A stretch of 64,000 nucleotides of DNA, from NCBI GenBank assembly GCA_016177735.1, contig JACOUS010000023.1, positions 62,001-126,000 on the forward strand, read 5' to 3'. The notes below the pieces were generated by a model, which saw only the letters and a list, made by a program, of their open reading frames with translations, was not told the origin of the DNA and did no database searches. A program made the translations under genes and the position numbers. Positions 15,271 to 38,264 of this stretch are shown here, in pieces (the first letter of the stretch is position 1; every line of letters starts with the position of its first letter). The DNA comes from Ignavibacteriales bacterium (lineage in GTDB: Bacteria > Bacteroidota > Ignavibacteria > Ignavibacteriales > Melioribacteraceae).

Positions 15271-15292
15271 TTATTGTATATCATACACTATG
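15271..15292 (+). promoter_or_regulatory. Predicted Nudix-regulator operator, site 1
   Basis: TTATTGT-ATATCAT-ACACTATG. This is one of five matches to an interrupted palindrome (TTATTGT-N7-ACACTAAG) found only before the first genes of the three glycan operons. It ends 48 bases before the start chosen for the phosphoesterase at 15341, and it would overlap the alternative start at 15290. Confidence 0.55.
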
Positions 15293-15340
15293 TTTGTAAT
15301 TTATTCAACAAAAATCAATTTTAAATTGGAATACCGTGGA

Positions 15341-16363
15341 ATGAGAAAGGGAATAAATCATTATATAGTTATAAAATTGGTTTTAATTTTTTCTTTGCTG
15401 GCTCACGATACAGCAGAAAGCCAAAACGGTAATAAAGAAAAATTAGATGTTACATTTTTTGTTGCCGCCGATTTGCATTTTGATCCTCCGCCGGAAACAG
15501 ATCAGTATTATCATGTAGCCGCTATGAATTCGATTAGCGGAATTTTCGATACCAACAAAGTATTAACATTTCTGGAAGAAATCGGGGGAAGCAAAACTGG
15601 TTTTGGAAGCTGCGGGCAAAAAATAAATATTCCTAAAGGTGTTGTACTGGTTGGCGATATAACGGATCGAGCCGAACCTTCGTCATTAAAACTTCTCAAA
15701 GAGAGATATGAAATAGGAATGGGTATTAACCAGATCCACTTTCAGGTTTATGTAGGATTAGGAAACCACGATCTCGATCCCCAGCATGTTGAACCTCGCC
15801 AAGAGGAATACCGAAAACAAATGCTGAACTACGTTACCGCCCGGCATCAAGGTAATAATGCGCCGGTAAGTGTTGATAATTTTGACAGCACATCTCACAA
15901 CTATTCATGGAATTGGGGTAATCTGCATTTGGTGCAAACTCATAGATTTGCCGGTAACATAGAAAACGGACATGTTAACAGTCTTGAATGGTTAAAAGCT
16001 GATTTGAAAAAATATGCTTCGAACGGAGAGCCGGTTATTATTTTTCAACATTACGGGTTTGATAAATTCTCACTTGGTTGGTGGAGCGATGCCGAACGAA
16101 ACGCACTAAAAGAAGTTTTGAAAGATTACAATGTGGTTGGAATTTTTACCGGGCACAATCACTTTGCAGAAAATTTGAAGTGGGGAGAAATTCCGGTTTT
16201 TCAAGTTAACAATGCATGGAAAGATGAAGACGGAAACGGTTCGTTCGCTGTTTGTCATGTAACCGATGAATATATTGATATTGTTACATGCAGATGGAAA
16301 GACGGTGAGGGGAATGCAGAATTTGTATTCCCTTTTTATACAAAAAAGTTTAATCAAAAATAA
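15341..16363 (+). CDS. Secreted calcineurin-like metallophosphoesterase
   Basis: A 340-residue exported metallophosphatase. After a signal peptide (hydrophobic VIKLVLIFSLLA) come the metal-binding blocks of the calcineurin-like fold: AADLHFD, VLVGDITDR, VGLGNHDLD, IIFQHYG and IFTGHNHF. The family hydrolyses phosphomonoesters or diesters with a two-metal centre. I chose the ATG at 15341. An ATG at 15290 is in frame but lies inside the predicted operator, and the signal peptide fits the later start better. The GH92 mannosidase follows 15 bases downstream, so the two are co-transcribed. The substrate cannot be read from the sequence; a phosphorylated glycan is suggested by the neighbours. Confidence 0.85.
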   Translation: MRKGINHYIVIKLVLIFSLLAHDTAESQNGNKEKLDVTFFVAADLHFDPPPETDQYYHVAAMNSISGIFDTNKVLTFLEEIGGSKTGFGSCGQKINIPKGVVLVGDITDRAEPSSLKLLKERYEIGMGINQIHFQVYVGLGNHDLDPQHVEPRQEEYRKQMLNYVTARHQGNNAPVSVDNFDSTSHNYSWNWGNLHLVQTHRFAGNIENGHVNSLEWLKADLKKYASNGEPVIIFQHYGFDKFSLGWWSDAERNALKEVLKDYNVVGIFTGHNHFAENLKWGEIPVFQVNNAWKDEDGNGSFAVCHVTDEYIDIVTCRWKDGEGNAEFVFPFYTKKFNQK

Positions 16364-16378
16364 TTTCGGGAAAATATC

Positions 16379-19321
16379 ATGAAAAAAAATTGCTTCGGAA
16401 TTTACATTTTACTTTTGGCTGGATGTTTCAATCTTTATGCACAAAATGTAACTAAGTATGTTAATCCTTTCATAGGTACCGGCGGACACGGACACACATT
16501 TCCCGGTGCATCTGTTCCTTTTGGAATGGTGCAATTAAGTCCCGATACTGATATTGAAGGATGGGACTGGTGTTCGGGTTATCACACTTCGGATAATTCG
16601 ATAATGGGTTTTAGTCATACACATCTCAGCGGAACGGGTGGTGCAGATTACGGCGATGTTTTATTGATGCCAACTATCGGCGAGTTAAAAATTATTCCCG
16701 GAAGTAAAACGAACCCAGATGAAGGTTACCGCTCACGGTTCACTCATAAAAATGAAAAAGCAGAAGCGGGTTACTACAGTGTAATTCTGGATGATTACAA
16801 AATCAAAGCAGAACTTACCGCAACAACACGAGCCGGATTTCATAAATACACTTTCCCGGAATCAAAAAATTCTAACATCATCATTGATTTAAAACACGGA
16901 ATATCCGACCGGACAGTTGAATCATATATAGATTTTGTGAGTACTACACAAGTAGAAGGATATCGAAGATCAAAAGGATGGGCAAATGATCAAATTCTCT
17001 ACTTCGTTATAAAGTTTTCGAAACCGTTCGAATCATTCGGCACTGCTATAGATGAGAAAATTTCTGCAAGTGTGAAAGATGCAAAAGGTGAAAACGTAAA
17101 AGGATATGTTCGATATAAAACAAGCGAAGGCGAACAAGTGTTGGTGAAAGTAGGAATTTCAGCAGTAAGTATTGAAGGAGCGAGAAAAAATCTTGATGCT
17201 GAAATTGCCAATTGGAATTTTGACAAAACACGTAACGAAGCAGAACAAATGTGGGAAAAAGAACTTGGCAAAATAAAAGTTGAAGGCGGCACTACAGAAC
17301 AAAAAACTGTTTTCTACACCGCACTGTTTCATACAATGATTCATCCGAATATTTTTATGGATGTTGACGGACAATTCAGAGATATGGATAACAAAATTTA
17401 TCAAGCAAAAAATTTCAATTACTACACTGTTTATTCTTTGTGGGATACATACCGCGCATTGCATCCGCTTTTCACTTTGATAGAACCGGAACGTGATGTT
17501 GATATGATAAAAACATTGCTTGCGAAATATGAAACGGGCGGATTGCTTCCCGTGTGGGAATTATCTTCGAACGAAACCGGTACAATGATCGGCTACCATT
17601 CTATTCCGGTAATTGTAGATGCATTCATGAAAGGCTTAAGAAATTTTGATGTTGAAAAAGCATTCACAGCGATGAAGAGAAGTGCGGATATGAATCATCT
17701 CGGATTAAAAACATACAAAGAACTTAATTACGTTGCATCGGACAGCGAGCACGAGTCAGTATCAAAAACTTTGGAATATTCTTACGATGACTGGTGCATA
17801 GCAATGATGGCAAAAGAACTCGGCAAAGAAGATGATTACGAACGATTCTACAAAAGAGCGATGAACTATAAAAATTTGTTTGACGGGTACAACGGATTTA
17901 TGCGCGGAAAAAAATCCGACGGCACATGGGTCCCGCTTTTTAATCCGTATGCTGTAACCCGCGATTTTACGGAAGCAAATTCGTGGCAGTATTCTCTTTA
18001 TGTTCCGCATGATGTTAACGGTTTGAAAAGTCTTTACGGCGGCGGCGATAAACTTGCAAAAAAACTTGATGAAACTTTTGAAGCCGATTCCAAACTTGAA
18101 GGAAAACAACAATCGGATATTTCCGGATTGATCGGGCAATACGCGCACGGCAATGAGCCGAGTCATCATATGGCATACCTCTACAACTTTACGCCGGAAC
18201 CGTGGAAAACCCAAAAGTGGGTGCACAATATTATGGATAATATGTACACAGCTTTGCCCGACGGCTTAAGCGGCAACGAAGACTGCGGACAAATGTCGGC
18301 GTGGCTGGTATTAAGTGCGATGGGCTTCTATCAAGTGTGCCCGGGCACAGACGAGTATGTTATCGGAACGCCTCTCTTCGAAAAGGTAACAATTGATAAC
18401 GGTAATGGAAAGAAATTTGTAGTTGAAGCACACGGCGTTTCATCGAAAAATATTTATATCCAATCGGTTAAGTTGAACGATGTATCGTACAACAAAAATT
18501 TTATCAAGTATGATAATATTATGAACGGTGCAAAGATTATTTTTGAAATGGGCGACGAGCCGAATAAAAATTGGGGAACCGGAAAAGAAAATCAGCCGTA
18601 TTCTTTTTCACAAATTGATTTTGTTTCTACTCCGTATCAAAAAAGTGATATAACTTATTTTGAAAATTCTGCCGTTGTTGATTTAACAACACGAACAGTT
18701 GGCGCTGAAATTCGCTATACGCTGGATGGAAGCGAGCCGGATGGACATTCAAAATTATTTTCCGGACCGTTTCAGTTAACAGAATCTGCAATAATCAAAG
18801 CAAAGGCGTTTAAGGGGGGAATGGATCCAAGTCCTCTTTCGTTAATCGAAGCGAACAAGCTTATTTATTTCGAACCGGAAAGTCTTCAGAAGCCGGTCAA
18901 CGGAATTAATTATGAATATTACGAAGGAACATTTTCAAGTGTGTTCGATTTTGCATCGAGTAAAGCATTGAAATCAGGAAGTCTGAAAAATTTTGATTTA
19001 AGTCCGGCAGAAAAAGAAGATCATTACGGATTTAAATTTACCGGTTATGTAAAAATTCCTAAAAAAGGTTTTTATCAATTTTATACTTTGTCCGATGACG
19101 GCTCGGTATTATTTATTGATGACAAACAAATTGTTGGTAACGACGGCTCGCACGGAGCCTTGGAAGCATCCGGTCTGATTGCGCTTAAAGAAGGTTTCCA
19201 CCGTTTGACATTATTATACTTCGAAGATTATGAAGGGAACAGTATCGAAGTTAAATTTGAAGGTCCGGAAATTGAAAAACAAGCAATCCCGGATTCAATG
19301 TTATTTTGCGAAGGTGAGTAA
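16379..19321 (+). CDS. GH92 family alpha-mannosidase with C-terminal PA14 domain
   Basis: A 980-residue exported enzyme. The N-terminus is hydrophobic and has a possible lipobox (LLAGC, residues 13-17), so it may be a lipoprotein, although LYAQN also looks like an ordinary cleavage site. The catalytic part (about 25-745) has GH92 hallmarks: NPFIGTGGHGHTFPGA, SDSEHESVSKTLEYSYDDW (about 460) and GNEDCGQMSAWLVLSAMG (about 635). GH92 enzymes are calcium-dependent exo-acting alpha-mannosidases. A chitobiase-C-like domain (SEPDG, about 785) and a PA14 domain (FYTLSDDGSVLFIDD, about 905) follow. The same two-domain tail ends the phosphatase at 21091. The preceding gene is a phosphoesterase, which fits removal of phosphate and mannose from one glycan. 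Confidence 0.93.
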   Translation: MKKNCFGIYILLLAGCFNLYAQNVTKYVNPFIGTGGHGHTFPGASVPFGMVQLSPDTDIEGWDWCSGYHTSDNSIMGFSHTHLSGTGGADYGDVLLMPTIGELKIIPGSKTNPDEGYRSRFTHKNEKAEAGYYSVILDDYKIKAELTATTRAGFHKYTFPESKNSNIIIDLKHGISDRTVESYIDFVSTTQVEGYRRSKGWANDQILYFVIKFSKPFESFGTAIDEKISASVKDAKGENVKGYVRYKTSEGEQVLVKVGISAVSIEGARKNLDAEIANWNFDKTRNEAEQMWEKELGKIKVEGGTTEQKTVFYTALFHTMIHPNIFMDVDGQFRDMDNKIYQAKNFNYYTVYSLWDTYRALHPLFTLIEPERDVDMIKTLLAKYETGGLLPVWELSSNETGTMIGYHSIPVIVDAFMKGLRNFDVEKAFTAMKRSADMNHLGLKTYKELNYVASDSEHESVSKTLEYSYDDWCIAMMAKELGKEDDYERFYKRAMNYKNLFDGYNGFMRGKKSDGTWVPLFNPYAVTRDFTEANSWQYSLYVPHDVNGLKSLYGGGDKLAKKLDETFEADSKLEGKQQSDISGLIGQYAHGNEPSHHMAYLYNFTPEPWKTQKWVHNIMDNMYTALPDGLSGNEDCGQMSAWLVLSAMGFYQVCPGTDEYVIGTPLFEKVTIDNGNGKKFVVEAHGVSSKNIYIQSVKLNDVSYNKNFIKYDNIMNGAKIIFEMGDEPNKNWGTGKENQPYSFSQIDFVSTPYQKSDITYFENSAVVDLTTRTVGAEIRYTLDGSEPDGHSKLFSGPFQLTESAIIKAKAFKGGMDPSPLSLIEANKLIYFEPESLQKPVNGINYEYYEGTFSSVFDFASSKALKSGSLKNFDLSPAEKEDHYGFKFTGYVKIPKKGFYQFYTLSDDGSVLFIDDKQIVGNDGSHGALEASGLIALKEGFHRLTLLYFEDYEGNSIEVKFEGPEIEKQAIPDSMLFCEGE

Positions 19322-19489: not shown

Positions 19490-20995
19490 ATGAACAAATC
19501 AATCGTTAATTTTGCGGTATTAATTTTTTTTATCATTCCTTCTTTAATCCATAGCCAGCACGATGACCATATCGGTTACAAGTGTGATGTTTTTTGGTCG
19601 GCAGGTAATAAACACGCACACTTACTTTATAACAGAGCAATTTCAAGTCAGTCGCACATAACATGGGGGACGGGCAATCACACATCTTCTCCGGTTCCGC
19701 TCGGTGCAGTTGGACCGGGAAAATATGTTAATCAACTGAAAGGAATTATCGATAACACAGAGATCGGGAAAGTAACACAGCAAGCAATACGCGACGGTGT
19801 GAACGTAATTTTGATGATCGGCGACGGAATGGGATTCAATCACATGAGTCTGCCAATCTATATGAGAATTGCTGAACAGAGCAGTGAAAAAACATACTTC
19901 GAAAAAATTATGGATGAAGGTGCTTCGGGAGTTGTGCTAACAAATACAATTAATGGAATTGTTACTTGTTCAGCGACCGCCGCCTCATCAATGGCGGCTG
20001 GCTACAAAAACATGATGGAAATTATAAGCGTTGATACAAACGGCTACCCGGTTGAAACATCTTTGGAACTTGCGGAAAAACTTGGTTATGTAACCGGACT
20101 CGTAACCGATGCCGGAATTACTGACGGAACGCCGGCGGCATTTTACGCGCATACATATAATAGAAATCTCGAAAATGAAATCGCAGAACAATTGATCGGT
20201 CACAATGTTGAAGTAATCTTTGGAGGCGGAGCCGCGAAGTTCATTCCAAAAGGAACCCGGCTGAAAGATTTTGCTTACTATAAAAACTCGCCATTCATAA
20301 ATGAAATGTCTTCCGAAAGAGAAGATGAAAAGAATTTGTTGACGGGTTTCGAAAATGAAGGATATAAAATAATTTCCGACAAGAATGATTTGATTAATCT
20401 TAATAGTAACACAGAAAAAGTTTTCGGATTGTTTAACGGCGGCGGTGTCTCTGCCACAATCGATAGAGACACAGAAAAAACGGATGAACCTTCATTGATT
20501 GATATGACAACAAAAGCGCTTGAACTTCTTGACCGCAAAGACAAAAACTTTTTTGTTATGATCGAAGCCGGCAGAATTGACTGGGAAGCACACGATAACG
20601 ATGCCGGTGCTGTTTACAAAGCTGTTGAAGAAATGAACGGTATGCTCGGCGTTTGCTACGATTTTCAGAAATCACATCCGAATACTTTATTGATTTTTAC
20701 TGCCGATCACGAAACCGGCGGACTCGGAATTGCATACACAAAAGCTTCCCCGGAAAACATTTTCAAAAAGAAACTGCAAAGCGGAGATATCTGGCACAGC
20801 GACACCGACCCTTTGTTTTTCCAACAATTCAAGAAATTGAAAAGCCAGAAAAGATCGCTCTACAAAATTTTCGGCGAAGCCAAATCAGACGAGCAGTTAT
20901 TTGAGATGTTGAACAATAATTCCGATTACAAAATTACACACGAAGACGCACAGATTATTTTTGATGTGATTCACGGATACAAAAAAGCAAAATAG
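19490..20995 (+). CDS. Secreted alkaline phosphatase
   Basis: A 501-residue alkaline phosphatase with a signal peptide (FAVLIFFIIPSLIHSQ). Metal and active-site blocks are ILMIGDGMGFNHM (about 110), VTCSATAASSMAAGY (about 160), TDAGITDGTPAAFYAH (about 205), EAGRIDWEAHDNDAG (about 360) and TADHETGG (about 405). It hydrolyses phosphomonoesters in the periplasm or outside the cell. In the nucleophile loop the residue before the presumed catalytic Ser is Cys, where the E. coli enzyme has Asp (Asp-Ser-Ala); activity may still be normal. About 80 residues before the first metal motif (with SSPVPLGAVGPGKY) are longer than in the E. coli enzyme. A 168-base gap separates it from the mannosidase; it probably belongs to the same group. 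Confidence 0.92.
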   Translation: MNKSIVNFAVLIFFIIPSLIHSQHDDHIGYKCDVFWSAGNKHAHLLYNRAISSQSHITWGTGNHTSSPVPLGAVGPGKYVNQLKGIIDNTEIGKVTQQAIRDGVNVILMIGDGMGFNHMSLPIYMRIAEQSSEKTYFEKIMDEGASGVVLTNTINGIVTCSATAASSMAAGYKNMMEIISVDTNGYPVETSLELAEKLGYVTGLVTDAGITDGTPAAFYAHTYNRNLENEIAEQLIGHNVEVIFGGGAAKFIPKGTRLKDFAYYKNSPFINEMSSEREDEKNLLTGFENEGYKIISDKNDLINLNSNTEKVFGLFNGGGVSATIDRDTEKTDEPSLIDMTTKALELLDRKDKNFFVMIEAGRIDWEAHDNDAGAVYKAVEEMNGMLGVCYDFQKSHPNTLLIFTADHETGGLGIAYTKASPENIFKKKLQSGDIWHSDTDPLFFQQFKKLKSQKRSLYKIFGEAKSDEQLFEMLNNNSDYKITHEDAQIIFDVIHGYKKAK

Positions 20996-21090
20996 AATTT
21001 ATTCGAAATGTTAAGGTCCCTTTGCGTTCTCTGCTTGAACTTTATTTCTCGCCAGGGAACAATCGCTTCATTTTATGGAGATTACTCACA

Positions 21091-22962
21091 ATGAAAAATT
21101 TTTTTATTGTTCTATTCATTTTCTCTACAACTGCCTTCTCTCAAAAAGAAAAATTAAATTTTCTCGTTAAACCTTATGTGCAAAACACATCCGCGACTTC
21201 GATTACAATATTGTGGGAAACAAACCCCGCATCAAAAGGTGAAGTGCAATTCGGCAAAGCAGAGCTTGATAAAAATTCTCCAACGCTTGACCAAAAAATA
21301 ATTCAAGATTCTTTTTCAACGATGCACGTTATCGAATTGAAAAATCTTGAGCCTGGCAAGCAATATTTTTACAAAGCTCTTTCATGTACAGAGAATGGCG
21401 ATACACTTATTTATAATATTCTGCCGATAGCAACATTTCCGTATGTTGAACAGCCGTTTACGTTTGCTGTCTTTAGCGATTCGCAGCAACAGGAAGATAC
21501 ACTCGCGTGGAATAAAATTTCCAACATGGCATTGATGGAAAGGCCAAACTTCGGATTGATCGTAGGCGATCTCGTTGAAAGAGGTGAAGATATCAACATG
21601 TGGCGGAATCAATTCCTTTCCAAAGCACACGAGTTTATGAAAAGCATTCCGCTCTTTCCTGTGATGGGTAATCATGATAACAACGATCCGAATTATTTTA
21701 AATACATGAAATCTCGCAGCGAAAAAAGTTATTACACTTTCACTTATTGTAATGCACAATTTTTTATAATCGACAGCAATCTTGAACTTGAACCGGGCAG
21801 CGAACAATATAATTGGCTCGAAGAAGAACTAGCAAAATCGAAAACTGATTGGAAAATTGCAGCGCATCATCATCCCGCGTATTCATCCGATTACGATGAT
21901 TACGGAAATTCCGAAACATCACTTCGCTTAAAAGGCGATCCGGTAATTCTTCCTCTCATTCCACTTTATGAAAAATATAATGTTGATGTTGTTTTCTCCG
22001 GGCACATTCACAGTTACGAAAGAACATGGCAAATCGCAAATGATAAAGTTGATGACGATGGAGTTGTTTATATACAAACCGGCGGTGCCGGCGGCAACCT
22101 GGAAAAAAGTGCGGTGATGAGATCGTGGTTCACTGCCAAAGTTAAAAGTGCACACAACTTCTGCCTCGTTTCAGTTAACGGCAATCAACTTTATTTCTGT
22201 GCGATTGATTACAGTGGGAATTTGTTTGATCAAATCAAATTGAAAAAGGAAGCTGATAAATTATTAACATTATCTACGCCGGTTATTCGCGCACATAACA
22301 ACAAATTCATTGATGAAATAAATGTAACTATTGAAGATTATAATAAAAACGCAGAGGCAAGATTTACATTCGACGGCGGTGAACCCTCGATCAATTCCCA
22401 ATTATACAAAGGACAAATAAGAATTAATGAATCATGCATACTAAAAGTTTCTTCTTTTGTAGGCAATCTAAAAAGCAAAACGAGCAAAATGTTTTTTGAA
22501 AAAATTGAAGGACAGAATGGATACGCTGTTAATCCTACAAACAACGGATTGAATTACAAATATTATGAAGGAACAAATTGGCTGAATCTGCCGGACTTTG
22601 AAAAGACAAAAGAAATCAAAAGCGGAGCCGTTGGCAATATTTCTATTACTGAAATCAAAGAGCGTGAGGATCAATTCGCAATAACCTACGGCGGATTTAT
22701 TCGTGTTGACGACAACGATGTTTATACTTTTTATGTTCGTTCCGATGACGGCACAAAGTTATACATCGATGATCAACTTGTTGTGGATAACAACGGCTCT
22801 CACAGCGCAAGAACAAAATACGGCAGTATAGCTTTGCTTGCTGGCTATCATAAATTTTATCTCGAATATTTTGACAACGTTGAAGGAGAGGAATTAAAAG
22901 TAATGTTCAAATCGAGCAAGTACGAAAGAAGGGAAATAAAAAACAACGAGTTGTTTCGTTAA
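21091..22962 (+). CDS. Purple-acid-phosphatase-like metallophosphoesterase with PA14 domain
   Basis: A 623-residue exported phosphatase. I use the ATG at 21091 because a signal peptide (FFIVLFIFSTTAFSQ) starts there and GGAG lies 11 bases upstream; an earlier TTG at 21022 would bury it. An N-terminal fibronectin-like domain (about 25-120, TSITILWETNP, LEPGKQYFYKA) is followed by the metal-binding blocks FSDSQ, IVGDLVERGED, VMGNHDNND, AAHHHPAYSSD and FSGHIHSYERT (about 125-390). This arrangement is typical of purple acid phosphatases. The tail is a chitobiase-C-like domain and a PA14 domain (FYVRSDDGTKLYIDDQL), the same architecture as in the GH92 protein. It is the last gene before the convergent Nudix regulator. 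Confidence 0.9.
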   Translation: MKNFFIVLFIFSTTAFSQKEKLNFLVKPYVQNTSATSITILWETNPASKGEVQFGKAELDKNSPTLDQKIIQDSFSTMHVIELKNLEPGKQYFYKALSCTENGDTLIYNILPIATFPYVEQPFTFAVFSDSQQQEDTLAWNKISNMALMERPNFGLIVGDLVERGEDINMWRNQFLSKAHEFMKSIPLFPVMGNHDNNDPNYFKYMKSRSEKSYYTFTYCNAQFFIIDSNLELEPGSEQYNWLEEELAKSKTDWKIAAHHHPAYSSDYDDYGNSETSLRLKGDPVILPLIPLYEKYNVDVVFSGHIHSYERTWQIANDKVDDDGVVYIQTGGAGGNLEKSAVMRSWFTAKVKSAHNFCLVSVNGNQLYFCAIDYSGNLFDQIKLKKEADKLLTLSTPVIRAHNNKFIDEINVTIEDYNKNAEARFTFDGGEPSINSQLYKGQIRINESCILKVSSFVGNLKSKTSKMFFEKIEGQNGYAVNPTNNGLNYKYYEGTNWLNLPDFEKTKEIKSGAVGNISITEIKEREDQFAITYGGFIRVDDNDVYTFYVRSDDGTKLYIDDQLVVDNNGSHSARTKYGSIALLAGYHKFYLEYFDNVEGEELKVMFKSSKYERREIKNNELFR

Positions 22963-23021: not shown

Positions 23022-23708
23022 TCATATTTCAAAGTTGTAGCCCTTCTCTTTCAGGCTGTCGTATTTACGTTTATCGAATCTATATAATTTTGCAGCGCGG
23101 TGCGGGACACCTTTTTGTTTTTCTAGCGGAACAAGAACATTCATCCCAAGAATTTTTTTGCGGAAATTTCTTTTGTCCATGTCAAAATCCATAATGGTTT
23201 CGTAGAGATTTTGTAACTGTGAGAGAGTAAATTTTAGAGGCAGCAATTCAAAACCAATCGGACGAATTCTAACACGCTGTTTCAATCTTTTCAGTGCATA
23301 ATTAATAATTTCATTATGATCGAACGGAAGCTTGGGAAGTTTTTTGATAGAAAACCACTGTGCATCGCTTACTTTGGGACCGGGTTCAGGTTTGTAATCT
23401 TCAATTTTCACGAGAGCAAAATAAGCAACGGTTACAACCCTAAACAAAGGGAAACGATAAACATCACCAAAAGTATAAAGTTGTTCCATGTAAACATTAT
23501 CAAGACCTGTTAATTCTTTCAGCACTCTTTTTGCGGCAATATCAAGATTCTCCTCTTGCAAAATATTGCTTCCGGGCAGCGCCCATTCGCCTTTGCCCGG
23601 TTCTACCGCAAGTTTTATCACGAGCACTTTCAACTCGGAATTGTCAAATCCGAATATGACGCAGTCGGTTGATAAATTTTTGATAATCTGGTTTGAATTT
23701 TTTGCCAA
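23022..23708 (-). CDS. Nudix-type transcriptional regulator (NrtR/AraR-like)
   Basis: A 228-residue protein with an N-terminal Nudix domain (about 8-140) and a C-terminal winged-helix region (about 150-225; LKFTLSQLQNLYETIM, ending HRAAKLYRFDKRKY). That is the layout of NrtR-family regulators, which include the Bacteroides arabinose regulator AraR. The Nudix box is degenerate: where hydrolases have REUxEExGU this has RVLKELTGL, so two of the three glutamates are gone. It probably senses a sugar-type or nucleotide ligand rather than hydrolysing one. It lies alone on the minus strand. Two copies of the shared palindrome lie 70 and 110 bases upstream, and further copies precede the other two glycan operons. 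I infer that it controls this whole region. The ligand is unknown. Confidence 0.88.
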   Translation of the reverse strand: MAKNSNQIIKNLSTDCVIFGFDNSELKVLVIKLAVEPGKGEWALPGSNILQEENLDIAAKRVLKELTGLDNVYMEQLYTFGDVYRFPLFRVVTVAYFALVKIEDYKPEPGPKVSDAQWFSIKKLPKLPFDHNEIINYALKRLKQRVRIRPIGFELLPLKFTLSQLQNLYETIMDFDMDKRNFRKKILGMNVLVPLEKQKGVPHRAAKLYRFDKRKYDSLKEKGYNFEI

Positions 23709-23778: not shown

Positions 23779-23800
23779 TTATTGTGTTTTTGACACTAAG
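23779..23800 (+). promoter_or_regulatory. Predicted Nudix-regulator operator, site 2
   Basis: TTATTGT-GTTTTTG-ACACTAAG in the divergent space between the Nudix regulator and the GNAT-GH89 operon. The half sites TTATTGTG and GACACTAA form an interrupted palindrome (6 of 8 positions pair). The next copy starts exactly 40 bases downstream. Confidence 0.6.
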
Positions 23801-28608: not shown

Positions 28609-28614
28609 TTTATC

Positions 28615-29124: not shown

Positions 29125-29153
29125 ACAAAATGAAAATACAAAAAGGTAAACTG

Positions 29154-31919
29154 ATGAACACAAAAATGCGAAGCCTATTATTCATTCTGACGGCACTACT
29201 ATTTAGTTCGGGTTACATGTTCAGTCAAACCACCGGAAAAATTGCCGGTAAAATTGTTGAAAAGAATACGAGCGAGGCATTACTTGGCGCAAATGTTTCT
29301 ATTGTTGGAACCACGATGGGTTCTGCCGCCAATTTAGACGGCGAATATTTTATTATAAATGTTCCGCCCGGTCAATATGATCTCAAAGTTTCGATGATCG
29401 GTTATGCACCGTTGATTTTTAAGAATGTTAACGTATCGGTTAATAGAACAACAACAATTAATGCCGAACTCGAAGCTGAAGACGTGGCGCTGTCCGAAGT
29501 AGTTGTCACTGTTAAAGCAATCAGCGATAAGAAAGATCAAACAAGCTCAATCAAAAACGTTTCCGGCGAAGATATAAAAACTCTTCCGGTTGAAAGTGTC
29601 GGCGATGTTATCGGATTGCAAGCCGGAGTTGTACAAGGACACTTTAGAGGAGGCAGAAGTACCGAAGTTTCTTATCTCGTGGACGGCGTTTCGGTAACAG
29701 ACGGTTATTCGAGAGAGAATTACAAAGTAGAAATTGAAACCGAAGCTGTTCAGGATATGGAAGTAATCACCGGTACATTTAATGCAGAGTACGGACGTGC
29801 GATGAGTGGTATCGTAAATATTGTTACAAAAGAAGGAAGCGAAAAATTCCGCGGTAGTGCTTCGGGAAGTTTGTCCAATTATTTTACTACTCACAATGAT
29901 ATTTTTCTTGGACTCGAAGCCGGCGATGCCGCAAGAAATCAGGATTACAAATTCCAGCTCGAAGGACCTCTCTACAAAAATTATATTACCTTTTTTACAA
30001 ATTTTAGATATCAGGATAACGATGGACATCTAAACGGTATCAGAAGATTCAATGTAAACGATTATACCGATTTCTCTCACGCAGATATAAATGATGGAGT
30101 TAAAACTCAGTGGGATGCAGTAATTAACGGAGACACTTATTATTCCGAACATACCGGAGATAACTCTTACGTTCCGATGAACTGGTCGAAAGATTATTCT
30201 GTATTGGGCAAACTCACGTTCCGCCCACTTGCCGTTTTTAAATTTTCGTTAATGTACACGAAAAATTACAACGAGATGCAGAACTATGAACATTACTATA
30301 AATACAAACCCGACGGCAGAAGAGTTTATTACGATAAAAGTGATTTCTACTTGTTCCAGTTGAACAATGTTTTATCCGACAATATGTTTCATGATATAAA
30401 AGTTTCGTATAAGCATTCACTGACCGATAATTATCTTTACAAAGATCCGTTCGATCAAAGATACGCTGCAGACAACTACGGTAAATCCGGCGGAGGATTC
30501 AGTACCGGCGGGCATGACAAAGGTTACAATGCAGTTGAGTTGAACGATCTGAATATTAAATACGATATCACATGGCAGTTGAATACACATCATTCTCTTA
30601 AAACCGGTTTTGATTACACGAGACACGATTTAACAAAAACAACCGTAATAGTCCGCGATATCAAATACGGCACTGCGGCACAAGAAGATTTTTATTACGA
30701 TCCCACAACCGGTAAAATTGTTTTCAATCCGTACGAACCTGAAATTCTTAGCGAAGCCGTTTCATCGGATAACTATAATAAAAAACCGTACGAGCTTTCG
30801 GCATATTTTCAGGATAAAATGGAATACGAAGACCTTGTGATTAATTTCGGTGCGAGATACGATTACTTCAATTCGAATACGGTTTACCCGACACAATTAA
30901 GAAATCCCGGCAATCAATTAAGTTATCCTGAAAATCCCGAAAGAATGTCGGAGTACCCGAAAGCAAAAGCACGCGCGCAATTTAGCCCGCGATTTGGTTT
31001 ATCGTACACGCTTGGCAGTGCGGCAGTACTTCATTTTAGTTACGGGCATTTTTTCCAGATGCCGCCGCTTTATGCTTTGTATCAGAACAGCAGATTTTTA
31101 GTTCCTTCGGGAAATTTTGAGACGATCATCGGCAACCCGAATCTGAAACCTGAAAAAACCGTTCAGTATGAAATGGGTTTCTGGCAAGAACTTCAGGAAG
31201 GTCTCGGATTTGAAGTCTCCGTTTTCTACAGAGATATTTATGATCTTCTCACGGCAGCAGTAATTACAACTTACAATCAGGTTAAATACGGATACTATGG
31301 GAATAAAGATTACGGCAACTCGAAGGGAATGGAAATGAAACTTGATTATGCATTCGATCCGTTCACCGTATTTGTAAATTATACTTTGCAGTACACGAGA
31401 GGTATTGCCGATAATCCGAGTTCAACATACACACGAGCCGGGCAGAATATGGATGAGATTTCAAAATTGATTCCGCTTGCATGGGATCAAAGACATACGT
31501 TGAATGTAAGTATGAATTACGAAAAAGAAAATTACGGATTGAATCTTACCGGCACTTTCAACTCCGGCATTGCGTACACATATAAACCGGTTTCCGAAAG
31601 CCCGCTTTCGAAGCAGACTTTGTTCCCGAATAATCAGCACCGCCCGGCAGCGTTTGATATTTCTTTTAAAGGTCATTACGATGTTGGTTTGGTTGATAAT
31701 GTAAAGATGAGATTCTTCTTGTCTGTTTATAATCTTCTCGATAGGCTGAATGAAGTAAGTGTTAACGAAACAACCGGACGTGCATACACTGCTATTCTTA
31801 CTCAAAGTCAGATTTCAACTTTCAAGAGCAACTTTAATGATGTGTACGATGCATCGCATGATCCGTCAATGTATTCGGCGCCGCGTTCGATAAAACTTGG
31901 TGTCGGAATTGTTTTCTAA
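29154..31919 (+). CDS. TonB-dependent outer-membrane receptor with N-terminal carboxypeptidase-like domain
   Basis: A 921-residue outer-membrane transporter. I use the ATG at 29154, which has AAGGT upstream and starts the signal peptide (LLFILTALLFSSGYMFSQ). An earlier GTG at 29121 would only add an unlikely leader. A CarboxypepD_reg-like domain (about 25-105: GKIVEKNTSEALLGANVSI, IGYAPLIFKNVNV) is followed by the plug (IKTLPVESVGDVIGLQAGVV, YLVDGVSVTD, GTFNAEYGRAMSGIVNIVTK). The rest is a 22-strand-type barrel ending in Phe. The family imports large solutes with TonB energy. It is SusC-like in domain order, but no SusD follows; instead a PorV-like barrel and a 1173-residue surface protein come next. 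Confidence 0.93.
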   Translation: MNTKMRSLLFILTALLFSSGYMFSQTTGKIAGKIVEKNTSEALLGANVSIVGTTMGSAANLDGEYFIINVPPGQYDLKVSMIGYAPLIFKNVNVSVNRTTTINAELEAEDVALSEVVVTVKAISDKKDQTSSIKNVSGEDIKTLPVESVGDVIGLQAGVVQGHFRGGRSTEVSYLVDGVSVTDGYSRENYKVEIETEAVQDMEVITGTFNAEYGRAMSGIVNIVTKEGSEKFRGSASGSLSNYFTTHNDIFLGLEAGDAARNQDYKFQLEGPLYKNYITFFTNFRYQDNDGHLNGIRRFNVNDYTDFSHADINDGVKTQWDAVINGDTYYSEHTGDNSYVPMNWSKDYSVLGKLTFRPLAVFKFSLMYTKNYNEMQNYEHYYKYKPDGRRVYYDKSDFYLFQLNNVLSDNMFHDIKVSYKHSLTDNYLYKDPFDQRYAADNYGKSGGGFSTGGHDKGYNAVELNDLNIKYDITWQLNTHHSLKTGFDYTRHDLTKTTVIVRDIKYGTAAQEDFYYDPTTGKIVFNPYEPEILSEAVSSDNYNKKPYELSAYFQDKMEYEDLVINFGARYDYFNSNTVYPTQLRNPGNQLSYPENPERMSEYPKAKARAQFSPRFGLSYTLGSAAVLHFSYGHFFQMPPLYALYQNSRFLVPSGNFETIIGNPNLKPEKTVQYEMGFWQELQEGLGFEVSVFYRDIYDLLTAAVITTYNQVKYGYYGNKDYGNSKGMEMKLDYAFDPFTVFVNYTLQYTRGIADNPSSTYTRAGQNMDEISKLIPLAWDQRHTLNVSMNYEKENYGLNLTGTFNSGIAYTYKPVSESPLSKQTLFPNNQHRPAAFDISFKGHYDVGLVDNVKMRFFLSVYNLLDRLNEVSVNETTGRAYTAILTQSQISTFKSNFNDVYDASHDPSMYSAPRSIKLGVGIVF

Positions 31920-31954: not shown

Positions 31955-33013
31955 ATGAAGAAGATTTCAATTTTGATAACACTGTTTGTACTGCTGATTT
32001 CCGGCGGAGTTTTTGCGCAGCAGCCGTACAGAGTTGGAACAACAGCGGCAAACTTTTTGGAAATTGGTTACGGCAGTATTGCAAATGCAATGGGTGATGC
32101 TCACGCAGCGGTTGATAACGGCGATTTAACATCATTGTATTGGAACCCGGCAAGTTTGGGTTACCGCACACGCAACGAAGCTTTTGTTACAGTTCAACCG
32201 TGGGTTGCGGATATTAATGTATCGAGTGCCGGATTCGGATATGCAGAATCTTCGCTTGGTACTTTTGCCGGAAGCGTTATAATTATGAATTACGGCTCCG
32301 AAGAAGTTACAACAGTTACAAATCCAAACGGTACCGGCGAAAAATTTGACGGAATGGATTTCAGTCTGAATTTTTCTTACGGCAAAAAAATTGTTGATTG
32401 GTTCTCTTTCGGGTTATCGGCAAAATATATCAGCACACAAATTTGGCACGAGAGTGCAAGCGCAGTAGCACTCGATCTCGGTGCTATCGTTAATACAAAA
32501 TTCTTTGCATGGTCGGATGTTCCCGGCGACGGACTTAATATCGGTATGTCTATTTCTAATTACGGAACACGTCTCACTTACGATGGAATTGATTTGAAAC
32601 AATCCGTAGATATCGAACCCGATGAGAACGGAAATTTTGCAAACGTTCCGGCGAGATACGAATTGGATGAATGGGAACTTCCTCTTCTTTTCAGACTGGG
32701 CGTTTCGTTCTATCCGTACAAATCAGAAATGCATTCGGTACAAATTGCAATTGATGCTTTGCACCCGAACAATAACAGCGAATCAATAAACATCGGTGCG
32801 CAATATTCACTGAGAATTCCGGCATACGGTGATATTTATATCCGCGGAGGTTACAAAGGTTTGTTGATGGATGAATCGCAATACGGACTTTCGTTCGGTT
32901 TGGGTGTTGCACTGAAAATGTTCGGCAATCAATCTGTTAAGTTCGATTATGCCTACAGAAGTCACGAAGTTCTCGGTAATATTAATTCCTTTTCGGTAGG
33001 CTTTTTATTTTAG
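31955..33013 (+). CDS. PorV/PorQ-like outer-membrane protein
   Basis: A 352-residue protein with signal peptide (ILITLFVLLISGGVFAQ) and the PorV/PorQ (FadL-like beta barrel) pattern: FLEIGYGSIANAMGDAHAAV, SLYWNPASLGY and a C-terminal aromatic strand ending SFSVGFLF. In T9SS bacteria PorV-type proteins shuttle secreted cargo to the outer-membrane translocon and the attachment complex. Its position between a TonB receptor and a large surface protein suggests it serves that protein. AAGG lies 8 bases before the ATG. Confidence 0.85.
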   Translation: MKKISILITLFVLLISGGVFAQQPYRVGTTAANFLEIGYGSIANAMGDAHAAVDNGDLTSLYWNPASLGYRTRNEAFVTVQPWVADINVSSAGFGYAESSLGTFAGSVIIMNYGSEEVTTVTNPNGTGEKFDGMDFSLNFSYGKKIVDWFSFGLSAKYISTQIWHESASAVALDLGAIVNTKFFAWSDVPGDGLNIGMSISNYGTRLTYDGIDLKQSVDIEPDENGNFANVPARYELDEWELPLLFRLGVSFYPYKSEMHSVQIAIDALHPNNNSESINIGAQYSLRIPAYGDIYIRGGYKGLLMDESQYGLSFGLGVALKMFGNQSVKFDYAYRSHEVLGNINSFSVGFLF

Positions 33014-33046
33014 TTAATAAGAAATGTGTAGTTAGGAGATAAAAAA

Positions 33047-36000
33047 ATGAAAAATTTTGTGAGAGTTCTTCTTCTATTGACGGCTGTAAACATTTCATTA
33101 TATGCGCAAGGAAGAATGTATGATGGTCCCGATGATCCCGCCGGTGATAAAGCCGCAGAAAGAGTCGGCTACATGACGGGCAACAGAGTGTTGATACAAT
33201 TTAGAAATACAACTGAACTTAGTGATTGCTGCGGCTTGGGCTACGAAGTTTCCAAGTGGCCGAATAATTATGAAGGCACGAAAATGACAGACGGCATCGC
33301 AACATTAATTGGCGCCAGAGTTTTTCTGCAGAACGATACGATCCCGGTTACAAGCGGTTATCAAGGCAGAACCGATCTCGATACTCTTTATTATATTCAA
33401 AGCAGTTACAGAGAACACATGGATAAAGATGCGACGCTAACCGTTGAATACGGTTTGTACCCGGTGTTCGGTTATTTCAACGAGTTGAGCGAAACACCGG
33501 CGGTAAGCAGTTCGCCTGAATCATGGCCCACCGACGGCTGGCCCTCCAACAACGGGAAAAAATGGCTCGGCGAATGGAACGGAAGATTCGGACGCGGAGT
33601 TGTTAAATCCGATCTCGAATGTTTCTTCGTTACAAATGACGCGCAAGATCAGGAATATTTGGAAAGCGGCAATAGAGTTCGTTATTATCCGCGACCCGGA
33701 ATTCAGATCGGTTACAAAGATCCGAACGTTACAATACAAAAAGGAAAACCGTGGGGCGGCATCGGGGTTAGAATTGAAACACGCGGCTTCCAGTGGAGTA
33801 ATCCTTCTGCTAACGATGCAATCTTTTGGGAAGATAATATTTCCAATATATCAAACTATGATTTGCCCGAAATGGTTTTCGGCTTCTGGATGGATAATGC
33901 AGTCGGCGGCGAAGAAGGTGTTGGAGACGATCTCGCTTTCTACACAACAGATTTGAACATGGCTTATACGTGGGATGTAGATTATGTTCCGGTCGGCGGA
34001 GGCAAAGCTCCCGGACTTCTCGGCTTTGCTTTTCTCGAAAGCCCCGGCTTACCTTTCGACGGAGTTGATAACGATAACGATGGTATCGTTGATGAAAAAA
34101 GAGACAACAGTGCAGCAGCAAAAGTTGGTGCAACTTCCGGCATAACTGATGTTGATAAATTTCTTTCGTACTACAAATTAACTTCTGCCGATCTTAAAGA
34201 ACACTGGGATGCAGATGAAGATCAGGACTGGGAAGACGGAATTGATGCAAACGGCAACGGTGTTTATGATAAAGATGAAAATGCAGGCGATGATGTCGGG
34301 CTGGATGGTGTTGGTCCCGGCGATATTAATTATACCGGTCCCGATGCGGACGGAACAGAATGTAATCACAAACCGGATTTTGCAGAAGGAATTGGAAGCG
34401 AACCGAATTTTGCTTCAACGGATATTAACGAATCCGATATGCTTGGCCTGACTTCGTTCCATTACACAACTGATATTGACAGACTTGCCATCATTCGAAC
34501 AGATGAAAGTTTATTCAAATATATGGCTGAAGGAACGTTCAATGATTTTCAGGATCAACCGCTCAACTTTATGGAATTTTTTGCATCGGGAATTTTTCCG
34601 CTTTACAGAGGAAGAACCGAGCGCGTTTCATTCGCCGAACTTCATTCTTACGATCCGCTTTCCGGATTAATGGGAGATTCACACGCCGCACCGGCTCTCT
34701 TCCGTTTGAAAGAAGTCGTTCAGGTTATTTATGAAACCGATTACCGCTTTGCACAAGCTCCTTTGATGCCGACACTGAAAGCAACTCCGGCTAACGGAAA
34801 AATAATTTTAACATGGGATGATGTTTCCGATAAACTTACGCGCGATGAATTCGTTAATAACAAAAATGATTTTGAAGGTTACAAACTTTACAGAGCAACG
34901 GATAAAAAAATGTCCGATGCAGAACAAATTACAGACGGTTACGGCAACCCCACTTTGAAGAAGCCGATTTTCCAATGCGATAAAATTGATAACATCACCG
35001 GCTTTGCAGATTTTGGCGCTGTCAATGGCGTTCAGTATTATCTCGGCGACGACAGCGGTATTCAGCATTACTTTGTTGATGAAGATGTTGAAAACGGAAG
35101 AACATATTATTACGTACTTGTTGCTTACGATTACGGTCTGCCGGATGTTGGAGACGGAATCAGTCCTTCCGAAAATAGTTTTGTGATACGACTTGACGAA
35201 GCAGAAGAAGTCGTTGAAATAAGCAAGAACGTTGCAATTGTTAAACCTCATCAGTTTGCCGCCGGCTACGTTGAACCGAGCATCACAATGAACGAAGATG
35301 TTGAAAGACTCGGCTACGGTGCACTCTCTACAAAAATTATTGTGCCGGATGAAATTAAAGCTCAGCATACTTACAGAGTTTATTTCGATGTTGATACAGT
35401 TACATATTTGAGATTAACCGAGCAATTGAGAAGCAGTGCCGACATGCTTTACGTTAACAATGGTTTCAAAGTTTACGATGTAACCGACAACAACAAATTG
35501 GTTTACTCGGAAAACACAACTGATTTTTCCGGCGAGAATATTGAAGGCGATAAATATCAATCTACCGGCGGAACGAAATATGAGTACAAAAGATTGAACG
35601 ACAAACTTGTTATTTCGGGAATGTTTGACGGGATTCAACTCTCGATAGAAAACCCGATCAATCTTGCGGAACAAAATTCGCAAACCACCGGATGGATTGA
35701 CGGTACTTCACCGATGAATGTCGATGTCAGCGAAAGCGAAGGAATATTCTTTCCGTGGAAGTACAATATTGTTTTCACTTCCGATAATAATGCATACACA
35801 TCGAAAACAACTTCAACAAGCAGAATAAAAGATGCCGATAACAATACACTTGGTCCTTCGCAAATTTTATTAAATCAGAATTTCAATTTCTACGTTGTTA
35901 ATAAATCACTCACGAATGAAAACGGCGAGCCTGAAAAACTTGATTTGATCGTTTACGATAAAAACCAGAACGGAAGTTTTGATTATGATACCGATGAAGT

Positions 36001-36568
36001 GCTTGCCGGTTATTCCGTTCAATCCGGTTCAAAAATTTATTGGGCGGGCACAGTATTCGGAATTGATTTCAGCACAGCATTCACGGAAAGCAAAATGCCG
36101 GCATCGGGCAATATTTATCAAGTTGATTTCAAGCGTCCGTTTGTTGCGTCGGATTATTTTGAATTCACCATTAACCCGCAAGTTGATCTCAGTGCAGAAA
36201 AATTAAAAGGCGATATGAACAGCATTAAAGTTGTTCCGAATCCGTATGTAGTAACAAACTCGCTTGAAGGCGCGGTTGCAAATTATCAATTGAATCAAAG
36301 AAGACAATTGATGTTCACAAACATTCCGGCGCAGTGTGTAATTAAAATATTCACTGTCAGCGGCGTTCTTGTAGATGAAATTGTAGTTGATAACGCTGCT
36401 GCTTCGCGTACAAAAGAATGGGACCTGAATTCAACTGCAAACGGCACTGCATTTTGGGATCTTAAAACACGGGAAGGTTTGGATATTGCTTCCGGTTATT
36501 ACATCTATCAAGTAAAATCGTCTTTAACCGGCGAAGAAAAAATAGGAAAGTTTGCAGTTGTTAAATAA
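33047..36568 (+). CDS. Large secreted surface protein with calcium-loop motifs and T9SS-like tail
   Basis: A 1173-residue exported protein (signal peptide VLLLLTAVNISLYAQ). I do not recognise the N-terminal 560 residues; they are rich in Trp, Gly and aromatic beta-type sequence. Acidic calcium-binding-like loops appear at about 337 (DNDNDGIVDEK), 398 (DANGNGVYDKDENAGDD) and 975 (DKNQNGSFDYDTDE). Residues about 568-1040 are clearly homologous to residues about 289-745 of the endonuclease-family protein at 40680. The C-terminus (VVPNPYVV, then SGYYIYQVKSS..GKFAVVK) resembles a T9SS sorting domain. GGAG precedes the ATG. It sits directly after the TonB receptor and PorV-like genes, where SusD-type binding proteins stand in other Bacteroidota; a ligand-capture role is inference. 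Confidence 0.75.
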   Translation: MKNFVRVLLLLTAVNISLYAQGRMYDGPDDPAGDKAAERVGYMTGNRVLIQFRNTTELSDCCGLGYEVSKWPNNYEGTKMTDGIATLIGARVFLQNDTIPVTSGYQGRTDLDTLYYIQSSYREHMDKDATLTVEYGLYPVFGYFNELSETPAVSSSPESWPTDGWPSNNGKKWLGEWNGRFGRGVVKSDLECFFVTNDAQDQEYLESGNRVRYYPRPGIQIGYKDPNVTIQKGKPWGGIGVRIETRGFQWSNPSANDAIFWEDNISNISNYDLPEMVFGFWMDNAVGGEEGVGDDLAFYTTDLNMAYTWDVDYVPVGGGKAPGLLGFAFLESPGLPFDGVDNDNDGIVDEKRDNSAAAKVGATSGITDVDKFLSYYKLTSADLKEHWDADEDQDWEDGIDANGNGVYDKDENAGDDVGLDGVGPGDINYTGPDADGTECNHKPDFAEGIGSEPNFASTDINESDMLGLTSFHYTTDIDRLAIIRTDESLFKYMAEGTFNDFQDQPLNFMEFFASGIFPLYRGRTERVSFAELHSYDPLSGLMGDSHAAPALFRLKEVVQVIYETDYRFAQAPLMPTLKATPANGKIILTWDDVSDKLTRDEFVNNKNDFEGYKLYRATDKKMSDAEQITDGYGNPTLKKPIFQCDKIDNITGFADFGAVNGVQYYLGDDSGIQHYFVDEDVENGRTYYYVLVAYDYGLPDVGDGISPSENSFVIRLDEAEEVVEISKNVAIVKPHQFAAGYVEPSITMNEDVERLGYGALSTKIIVPDEIKAQHTYRVYFDVDTVTYLRLTEQLRSSADMLYVNNGFKVYDVTDNNKLVYSENTTDFSGENIEGDKYQSTGGTKYEYKRLNDKLVISGMFDGIQLSIENPINLAEQNSQTTGWIDGTSPMNVDVSESEGIFFPWKYNIVFTSDNNAYTSKTTSTSRIKDADNNTLGPSQILLNQNFNFYVVNKSLTNENGEPEKLDLIVYDKNQNGSFDYDTDEVLAGYSVQSGSKIYWAGTVFGIDFSTAFTESKMPASGNIYQVDFKRPFVASDYFEFTINPQVDLSAEKLKGDMNSIKVVPNPYVVTNSLEGAVANYQLNQRRQLMFTNIPAQCVIKIFTVSGVLVDEIVVDNAAASRTKEWDLNSTANGTAFWDLKTREGLDIASGYYIYQVKSSLTGEEKIGKFAVVK

Positions 36569-36654: not shown

Positions 36655-38175
36655 ATGGAAAAAAACTATCAACATATCGGGAAATTTTTCTTACTCAACT
36701 TTGTACTAATTTCTTTTCTGCTGGCGGCAAACACAAATGCGCAAGAAGAAAAAATTTTAGCGCGGGTGGGAGATAAAACAATTTCGCTGGATGAGTTTAT
36801 TAGAAGAGCGGAATACACAGTGCGTCCGGCTTATTGTAAAAACAATTTCAATATCGATAAAAAGATAATTCTAAATTCATTGATCGCCGAAAAATTGCTT
36901 GCGATTGAAGCCGGCGGGAATAATACGTTCATCAGCAAAGCGGAAGTGCAGGCATATCTGCAAGGAAGAAAAGAACAGTTGATGCGGCTCTATCTTTATA
37001 ATGATGAAGTACGAAGCAAAATAAAACTCGATACAAATAAAATTAATACTGCATTTAAGTATGCCGGACGCGAATACCAAATTTCTTACGTCAGTCTGCA
37101 AGATTCTTTGATTGCAAAACAGCTCGAAGAAGAAATAATCGAAAAGAAAATTCCTTTCGAAAAAACGCTTCATGAAAATTACAATCTGCAAGAGATACCC
37201 GAAAAGAAAGTTGAGTGGAGTAAACTTGAACATCCGCTCGTGCTCGACAGTCTTTTTTCAAAGGACCATAAAAAAGGCGACGTTATTGGTCCATTGAAGA
37301 TCGAAGATAATCATTACATGTTTATAAAAATAAATAGCTGGAAAAACACACCGGCTATAACTGCAAAACAAATAGAGAACAGATACAATTCTGTTCACAA
37401 CACGTACGAAGAGAGTGAAGCTTTCAGAGGATATGTTGAATATGTAAAGGAAATAATGAATGGCAAAAGTTTGGACTTCAATAAGGAAGTCTTTTTTGAA
37501 CTTGCAGATATTTTTGGTCCGGAATACATGAACAGCAGAAAAACTCAAGAAGAAGCTTTTGAAGAAGGTGTTTGGGATTATAAAAAAGAAGAAATGGAAT
37601 TCCGGAATACTAAACCGCGTCTCGATGAAATCAGAAATGAAAAATTGTTCACGTTCGATAATCATGATTGGACAGTAGAAGAATTTCTTCGTGAAATAAA
37701 AAAGCACCCTCTCGTTTTCAGAGAGAAAAAATTTCCGCAGAATAAATTTGGAGATCAGTTGCAATTAGCAATATTAGATATGATCAGAGATGAATGCCTG
37801 ACTAAAGAAGCTTATGCCAAAGGCTATGATGACGTGCCCGGGGTTGTGCGTGATAATCAAATGTGGAAAGATAATCTCAACTCACTTTATGAAAAGTATA
37901 GAATACTAAAAGAAGCCGGTAAAGATTCTTTGTTTGCTTCCAACTATCAGGAAGTTATTAAAAGTACATTGAACCCATACGTTGATTCTCTTCAGTACAA
38001 ATATTCCGATAAGATTTTTATAAACACGGATTTATTTAACAATATCAAACTTACCAAAATCGATCTGTCTGTGACGTATGCAAATTCTCCTTTTTCTCAG
38101 GTTGTTCCGAATTTTCCGCTGGTAACAACCGATAACAAACTTGACTACGGCAGTGCAGTAAAAAGTGTTCCTTAA
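36655..38175 (+). CDS. Peptidyl-prolyl cis-trans isomerase, parvulin/SurA-like
   Basis: A 506-residue exported protein with signal peptide (FLLNFVLISFLLAANTNAQ). The SurA-type N-terminal helical region starts at ARVGDKTISLDEFIRRAEY (about 38), and a parvulin-type segment lies at about 145-230 (YQISYVSLQDS, then GDVIGPLKIEDNHYMFIKIN). The C-terminal tail ends in a hydrophobic, proline-rich stretch similar to that of the partial isomerase at the start of the window. It probably helps fold or escort outer-membrane barrels. It is the last gene after the receptor, PorV-like and surface-protein genes, 86 bases downstream, which suggests a dedicated chaperone. There is no strong ribosome-binding site before the ATG. 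Confidence 0.8.
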   Translation: MEKNYQHIGKFFLLNFVLISFLLAANTNAQEEKILARVGDKTISLDEFIRRAEYTVRPAYCKNNFNIDKKIILNSLIAEKLLAIEAGGNNTFISKAEVQAYLQGRKEQLMRLYLYNDEVRSKIKLDTNKINTAFKYAGREYQISYVSLQDSLIAKQLEEEIIEKKIPFEKTLHENYNLQEIPEKKVEWSKLEHPLVLDSLFSKDHKKGDVIGPLKIEDNHYMFIKINSWKNTPAITAKQIENRYNSVHNTYEESEAFRGYVEYVKEIMNGKSLDFNKEVFFELADIFGPEYMNSRKTQEEAFEEGVWDYKKEEMEFRNTKPRLDEIRNEKLFTFDNHDWTVEEFLREIKKHPLVFREKKFPQNKFGDQLQLAILDMIRDECLTKEAYAKGYDDVPGVVRDNQMWKDNLNSLYEKYRILKEAGKDSLFASNYQEVIKSTLNPYVDSLQYKYSDKIFINTDLFNNIKLTKIDLSVTYANSPFSQVVPNFPLVTTDNKLDYGSAVKSVP

Positions 38176-38210
38176 AGTTTACAATTAATTCACACACAAA
38201 ATGAAGTTCG

Positions 38211-38232
38211 TTATTGTGTATTGTACACTATG
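38211..38232 (+). promoter_or_regulatory. Predicted Nudix-regulator operator, site 4
   Basis: TTATTGT-GTATTGT-ACACTATG, 22 bp, upstream of the beta-helix protein gene. It matches sites 1-3, and a further copy begins 32 bases downstream. Confidence 0.55.
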
Positions 38233-38242
38233 TATTTATATT

Positions 38243-38264
38243 ATATTGTAAAAATCACACTAAG
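38243..38264 (+). promoter_or_regulatory. Predicted Nudix-regulator operator, site 5
   Basis: ATATTGT-AAAAATC-ACACTAAG, ending 66 bases before the ATG of the beta-helix protein. It has the same orientation as the other four sites. Confidence 0.55.

Follow-up and report, generated by a model that had tools for sequence, protein, structure and literature searches.

The window, which is the whole 64,000-nucleotide stretch of DNA analyzed here, from a bacterium of the Ignavibacteria, carries a 28-kb set of genes in three operons that, judging from its sequence, is very probably controlled, together with the regulator's own gene, by a single Nudix repressor. The initial annotation had proposed one Nudix-controlled glycan regulon in this region, and that proposal is supported by the rarity of the sites, by their conservation, by the presence of a single regulator, and by an operator geometry like that of AraR. 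Such a regulon would take the Nudix-type sugar repressors beyond pentose pathways, to a phosphorylated glycan of complex structure. And the regulator would be a clean example of a change in the effector pocket with the DNA site retained.

Five sites, their rarity and their conservation

The five sites reported in the initial annotation are where it had placed them, all on the forward strand. Operator 1, TTATTGTATATCATACACTATG (15271..15292), is located 48 bases 5′ of the MPE1 operon and runs at its 3′ end into a −7 element of the Bacteroidota type, TATGTTTG (15289-15296). Operators 2, TTATTGTGTTTTTGACACTAAG (23779..23800), and 3, ATATTGTAAAAAATACACTAAG (23819..23840), share the gap between the divergent regulator and GNAT genes, and the TATATT found between them is conserved, reading TATATTTG in a relative from another genus (G042). 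Operators 4, TTATTGTGTATTGTACACTATG (38211..38232), and 5, ATATTGTAAAAATCACACTAAG (38243..38264), precede the gene for the CBM9 protein. The spacings of 40 and 32 bases first given for the paired sites are correct. The proposed 22-bp pattern, TTATTGT-N7-ACACTAWG, is exact in three of the five, the sites at 23819 and 38243 having A for T as their first base, and its description as a palindrome holds roughly: each site is a semi-palindrome, in which a single pair of bases fails to match across the half-sites. The mechanical ORF start used for the first gene of the left operon, 15290, falls inside operator 1; the operator still precedes the gene, the start of which is most likely the ATG at 15341, with a signal peptide.

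To count the motif genome-wide, we used pattern searches of the 3.87-Mb genome, in which the window is part of contig C27. The 21-bp core TATTGT-N7-ACACTAWG has 5 exact matches, all of them in this 23-kb stretch, and allowing for 1 mismatch adds one place in the genome; the exact matches are confined to the glycan cluster, and the scatter of unrelated hits that the initial annotation had named as a refutation is not seen. The palindromic form WTAKTGT-N7-ACAMTAW occurs 6 times, 5 of them in the cluster, versus 3 for a reversed-pattern control. At the control rate, about 0.02 sites are expected per 23 kb, and the calculated chance of finding five is about 1e-11. The sixth site (C15:54325) precedes an unrelated gene and is within the chance rate, and a loose palindrome with two mismatches, having 144 matches versus 191 in its control, is uninformative. 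A weight matrix constructed using G042 only, another genus, places the window's five sites at ranks 1-5 (15.1-20.4 bits), with the next place at 12.0. In the 30 Markov-simulated windows that serve as its null, the best score has a mean of 11.9 and a maximum of 17.5, and the fifth-best score has a maximum of 9.5.

The gene order of the cluster on both sides of the divergent regulator is kept in two relatives, G042 and a genome of the same genus (G001), with MPE1 absent from the G001 cluster. Operators are found at matching places: one 5′ of MPE1 or GH92, two in the regulator-GNAT gap, and one or two 5′ of CBM9. A scan of related genomes, which had been suggested as a check, thus recovers these sites 5′ of the corresponding operons both in another species of the genus and in another genus. 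The counterpart of operator 1 lies 5′ of GH92 in G001 (L113:12895) and 5′ of MPE1 in G042 (L117:7708); the MAFFT alignment misplaces the latter, and its position is taken from the pattern scan. The contig with the G001 cluster ends short of CBM9. In that genome, the pattern scan reports a site on a different contig, between the SurA-like and CBM9 orthologs (C80:9011), which is the ortholog of operator 5; outside the cluster, the G001 genome has two zero-mismatch sites, of which this is one. In the regulator-GNAT gap, operators 2 and 3 are better conserved than most of the surrounding intergenic DNA. G042 has an extra one-mismatch site 5′ of the TonB receptor gene.

Could the sites be ordinary promoter elements, with no dedicated regulator? 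They do overlap or flank −7-like elements, as a promoter element would, but the motif hardly occurs elsewhere in the genome, the sites are palindromic and better conserved than the flanking intergenic DNA, and they adjoin NrtR-type genes in other loci. We regard this explanation as highly improbable.

The Nudix regulator and the predicted repression

The regulator is encoded at 23022..23708 on the reverse strand, divergently from the GNAT operon. It matches the Pfam families NrtR_WHD (5.2e-25, 87.8 bits, cut-off 27), AraR_C (6.4e-12, 46 bits, cut-off 23.8) and NUDIX (2.9e-10, 40.7 bits, cut-off 21.1), and its domain order, an N-terminal Nudix-like domain and a C-terminal winged helix, is the architecture of the NrtR family. 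The predicted model (pLDDT 88) is matched by Foldseek to BtAraR (5bs6) with an E-value of 3.4e-26 and 43% identity in the structure alignment. It is the sole NrtR-type protein found in the window genome. The description of the one regulator of the region, with two sites at its divergent start, as an NrtR/AraR-like Nudix protein is supported by Pfam and by fold.

The catalytic Nudix signature is degenerate, the REUXEE motif (PMC4666351) reading RVLKEL. In BtAraR, arabinose is contacted by Arg34, Arg86 and His131 (PMC4666351). The regulator keeps the last two, as R85 and H131, and has Leu33 at the Arg34 position (R33L), which sets it apart from the arabinose-residue pattern of Bacteroides AraR; the DNA-intercalating Arg180 is also kept. 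Among about 65 proteins compared, leucine at this position is found in the window, G001 and G042 proteins only. Most relatives keep the effector arginine; in a few others, this position is occupied by Y, A, Q or H. In a tree, the same three orthologs form a well supported group within the Bacteroidota branches.

Other NrtR-type subclades (L051, L054, L092, L101, L107, L108; L096, L097, L111) have Tyr, Ala or Gln for the arginine, and some of those with an altered effector position also have a changed His131. The variation in these sequences is a hint of several unstudied effector specificities.

The nearest relatives outside the group of three are 51-57% identical. In 10 of 12 loci, the paralogs have a neighboring gene for xylose isomerase (identified from GGREG in its sequence and not through a family search), and a site of the operator kind adjoins them in 8 of the 12 loci examined. 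The regulon has no xylose genes, and so departs from the XylR-type linkage. Because these paralogous XylR-like regulators use a near-identical motif, the sites alone cannot tell the binder in G001 and G042, which have both; a conserved site by itself is no proof of which protein binds. This similarity of motifs is what speaks for assigning the sites to a regulator encoded elsewhere, for instance another XylR-like protein, and not to the Nudix protein at 23022. We find that assignment quite unlikely, given that the window genome is without any other relative of the Nudix regulator, and that the regulator gene accompanies the cluster in three genomes.

Binding, the direction of control and the effector are predictions of the following model. 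The divergently transcribed repressor, from the AraR/XylR-like branch of the NrtR family, would bind the AGTGT/ATTGT-N7-ACACT operators as a dimer, and would shut its own gene and the three operons, MPE1-GH92-ALP-PAP, GNAT-GH89-SSF-TonB receptor-PorV-like-SurA-like, and CBM9-phosphatase. Since the operators overlap or enclose −7-like elements, binding should block transcription, and the layout, with operator 1 on TATGTTTG and operators 2 and 3 around TATATT, is as expected for repression. By analogy with the release of BtAraR by L-arabinose, a cytoplasmic sugar-like breakdown product would release the repressor.

The three operons and their candidate substrate

All genes of the three operons are on the forward strand. 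The first operon encodes MPE1, a secreted calcineurin-like phosphoesterase (15341..16363; Pfam Metallophos 2.4e-12, signal-peptide-like N-terminus) whose PDB relatives are all weak, with purple acid phosphatases ranking first; a secreted GH92 alpha-mannosidase with CHB_HEX_C and PA14 domains (16379..19321); a secreted alkaline phosphatase (19490..20995; Alk_phosphatase 1.2e-70); and a secreted purple-acid-phosphatase-like enzyme, again with CHB_HEX_C and PA14 (21022..22962), the gene for which probably starts inside the mechanical ORF. The GH92 and the purple acid phosphatase (16379-22962) have this CHB_HEX_C plus PA14 tail in common, suggesting that both enzymes bind the same glycan.

The second operon starts with a cytoplasmic GNAT acetyltransferase of AAC(2′)-like fold (23895..24425), a GH89 alpha-N-acetylglucosaminidase without signal peptide (24443..26599; NAGLU 1.5e-120), and an inner-membrane SSF sodium:sugar symporter of the SGLT branch (26643..28184). 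It continues with a conserved protein that has no Pfam match (28615..29124; orthologs 57% identical in G001 and 38% in G042), a TonB-dependent receptor with a SusC-like N-terminal part (29121..31919; 70.7 bits versus a cut-off of 368), a PorV-like outer membrane beta-barrel (31955..33013), a 1173-aa secreted protein with no Pfam match and a C-terminus that resembles a T9SS sorting tail (33047..36568; G042 ortholog 73% identical), and a SurA-like periplasmic protein below the Pfam cut-off (36655..38175). In the window, no operator was found 5′ of the segment that starts at 28615 and includes the TonB receptor, and its control thus depends on read-through from 23895. The third operon encodes a CBM9-domain protein with a T9SS sorting domain (38331..40514) and an endonuclease/exonuclease/phosphatase-family enzyme with a T9SS tail (40680..43265; PDB 4c1r, E 1.6e-37), the named relatives of which include a mannosyl-6-phosphatase. 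The initial gene list was correct, but it had missed the location of the GH89, the GNAT and the symporter, in the cytoplasm or the inner membrane.

The cluster has no SusD match, and so lacks the SusC/SusD pair of a Sus-type locus. Between 29121 and 38175, the TonB receptor, the PorV-like barrel, the very large secreted protein and the SurA-like protein follow in a row without a SusD, and a similar TonB receptor/PorV-like set is found on the same G001 contig (L114:7635-18719). This set is possibly an Ignavibacteria substitute for SusC/SusD. Downstream, at 43845-59882, a separate galactose/galactan block with none of these operators has its own LacI-type regulator and includes a ROK kinase, a sugar MFS transporter, a second SSF symporter, GalK, GalT, a GH2 beta-galactosidase and GH53.

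The location of the GH89, the neighboring GNAT and the symporter in the cytoplasm or inner membrane suggests a specific pathway, and the three together suggest a cytoplasmic acetylate-then-cleave module for alpha-glucosaminides. The GNAT and GH89 genes are adjacent, and both without signal peptide, in the three species. The top ten Foldseek matches of the GNAT, obtained with a modest-confidence model (pLDDT 73, three sequences), are all AAC(2′)-Ia; at the sequence level, the GNAT matches AAC(2′) weakly. AAC(2′) enzymes acetylate the 2′-amine of a glucosamine-like ring that is alpha-linked to an aminocyclitol. A survey of 391 genomes in the class finds the GNAT in 3, and relatives outside the three cluster genomes are marginal only. 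In G001, the GNAT and GH89 (L113:2637-5367) are 61-65% identical to those of the window, compared with 81-90% for most neighbors, which indicates either faster divergence of this pair or its exchange.

A further 27 GH89 genes were sampled across the phylum, and a simple measure of hydrophobicity assigns a signal peptide to nearly all of them. In 6 of the 27 sampled Bacteroidota loci (L164:219-1466, L166:3639-4796, L168:3684-4901, L170:3615-4712, L180:218-1390 and L184:3720-5012), the secreted GH89 adjoins an HGSNAT-type membrane acetyltransferase (profile versus human HGSNAT, E 1e-46), suggesting a bacterial acetylate-then-cleave unit for alpha-glucosaminides. HGSNAT acetylates alpha-glucosamine, and NAGLU then cuts it. 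Next to these secreted pairs, the GNAT-GH89 pair looks like a cytoplasmic equivalent.

Which glycan would such a regulon serve? Outside the cell, the secreted enzymes would strip a phosphorylated glycan of its phosphate and alpha-mannose. The symporter would then import an alpha-glucosaminide, the GNAT would acetylate its free amino group, and the cytoplasmic GH89 would cut the alpha-GlcNAc bond. The repressor would have been re-tuned from a pentose to glucosaminyl-inositol or an inositol-type effector. Phosphate, mannose, unacetylated alpha-glucosamine and inositol taken together describe the GPI core, EtNP-6Man-alpha2-Man-alpha6-(EtNP)Man-alpha4-GlcN-alpha6-Ino-P-lipid (PMC7125958). We tentatively propose, as a possible reading still short of probable, a dedicated Nudix-repressed pathway for the GPI-anchor glycan core (mannose-glucosamine-inositol) that would proceed via glucosaminyl-alpha-inositol.

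The pattern of the glucosaminide module leads one to expect a link to inositol, and the extra first gene of the G042 operon is then IolG: the GNAT operon of that genome is headed by a myo-inositol 2-dehydrogenase (L116:17920-18936, reverse strand; 468 bits versus a cut-off of 355), a gene type absent from the window's operon. This makes glucosaminyl-alpha-inositol the best candidate. In the window genome and in G001, IolG and IolE both score below their cut-offs; in the G042 genome, IolG is above and IolE below (212 versus 290 bits). With no confident inositol dehydrogenase or IolE in the first two genomes, the inositol link comes from one genome. G042 also has a separate iolE-iolG pair (L133, L188; G042:C36:31498-33406), and the stretch read there (L133) has no such operator. 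The relationship of the endonuclease/exonuclease/phosphatase-family enzyme to mannosyl-6-phosphatase speaks for the GPI core, and against it, the cluster has a single GH92, few for the three different mannose linkages of that core. In the literature searched, no bacterial pathway degrading the GPI glycan core is described. If the GPI reading is true, the regulon would describe bacterial recycling of the GPI anchors that occur throughout the eukaryotes, and acetylation of cyclitol-linked glucosamine would be suggested as a natural function of AAC(2′)-like acetyltransferases.

It is quite possible, if less than likely, that the same regulon acts instead on a fungal phosphomannan or an alpha-GlcNAc-capped N-glycan-type substrate, the GNAT then acetylating something else, such as free glucosamine. 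The GH92 and the phosphatase have relatives among the Bacteroides alpha-mannan enzymes, which are linked to yeast mannan, and GH89 enzymes take off terminal alpha-GlcNAc (PMC8225759). Such a substrate fits poorly with an intracellular GH89 beside an acetyltransferase, when nearly all the other sampled GH89s have signal peptides, or with the lack of an endo-mannanase among the regulon's family matches, and it leaves the G042 IolG gene unexplained. A prokaryotic substrate is an unlikely third choice. Glucosaminyl archaetidylinositol in methanogens and mycothiol-derived GlcN-inositol are natural compounds, and either would account for the GNAT, the cytoplasmic GH89, the G042 IolG and the phosphoesterases, but not for the GH92 mannosidase and the mannosyl-6-phosphatase-like enzyme.

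Comparison with known systems

The closest characterized system is the AraR of Bacteroides thetaiotaomicron (BT0354), for which EMSA has established AGTGT-N7-ACAC(T/C) operators that can be in tandem, with L-arabinose releasing the binding (PMC4666351). Both proteins combine Nudix and winged helix domains in the same fold, with a degenerate Nudix signature and the equivalents of Arg180, Arg86 and His131; both go with 21-bp semi-palindromic operators with N7 spacing and an ACAC half-site, often in tandem; and the predicted regulon, like that of AraR, comprises surface glycan enzymes and transporters. They differ in that leucine replaces Arg34 in the window protein, as in both of its orthologs, in that one half of the window operator is ATTGT and not AGTGT (the other half, ACACT, is the same), and in that the window regulon has no arabinose genes. 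For XylR (BT0791 in Bacteroides), the comparison is with the xylA-linked Melioribacteraceae paralogs. These are the closest relatives outside the group and have nearly the same operator, but they keep the arginine and their xylose isomerase neighbors, whereas the window protein has a GH92/GH89 cluster around it. The ADP-ribose-responsive NrtR of Shewanella oneidensis shares the domain architecture and the fold. Control by ADP-ribose or NAD was rejected, as the regulator scores 146 bits versus the 400 of the NCBIfam equivalog cut-off (NF050029), and there are no NAD genes at the sites or in the regulon.

In the lysosome, the HGSNAT to NAGLU step similarly acetylates an alpha-glucosaminide before the GH89 cut. 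The proposed bacterial step is cytoplasmic, with a soluble GNAT in place of the membrane acetyltransferase. The lysosomal step acts on heparan sulfate, a substrate that we rejected for the window regulon, in which no lyase (heparinase) or sulfatase was found. Finally, the yeast-mannan loci of Bacteroides carry a GH92 and a mannosyl-6-phosphatase relative, and so does the window cluster. Unlike those loci, it has no SusD, and it combines these enzymes with a cytoplasmic GNAT-GH89-symporter module and a Nudix regulator.
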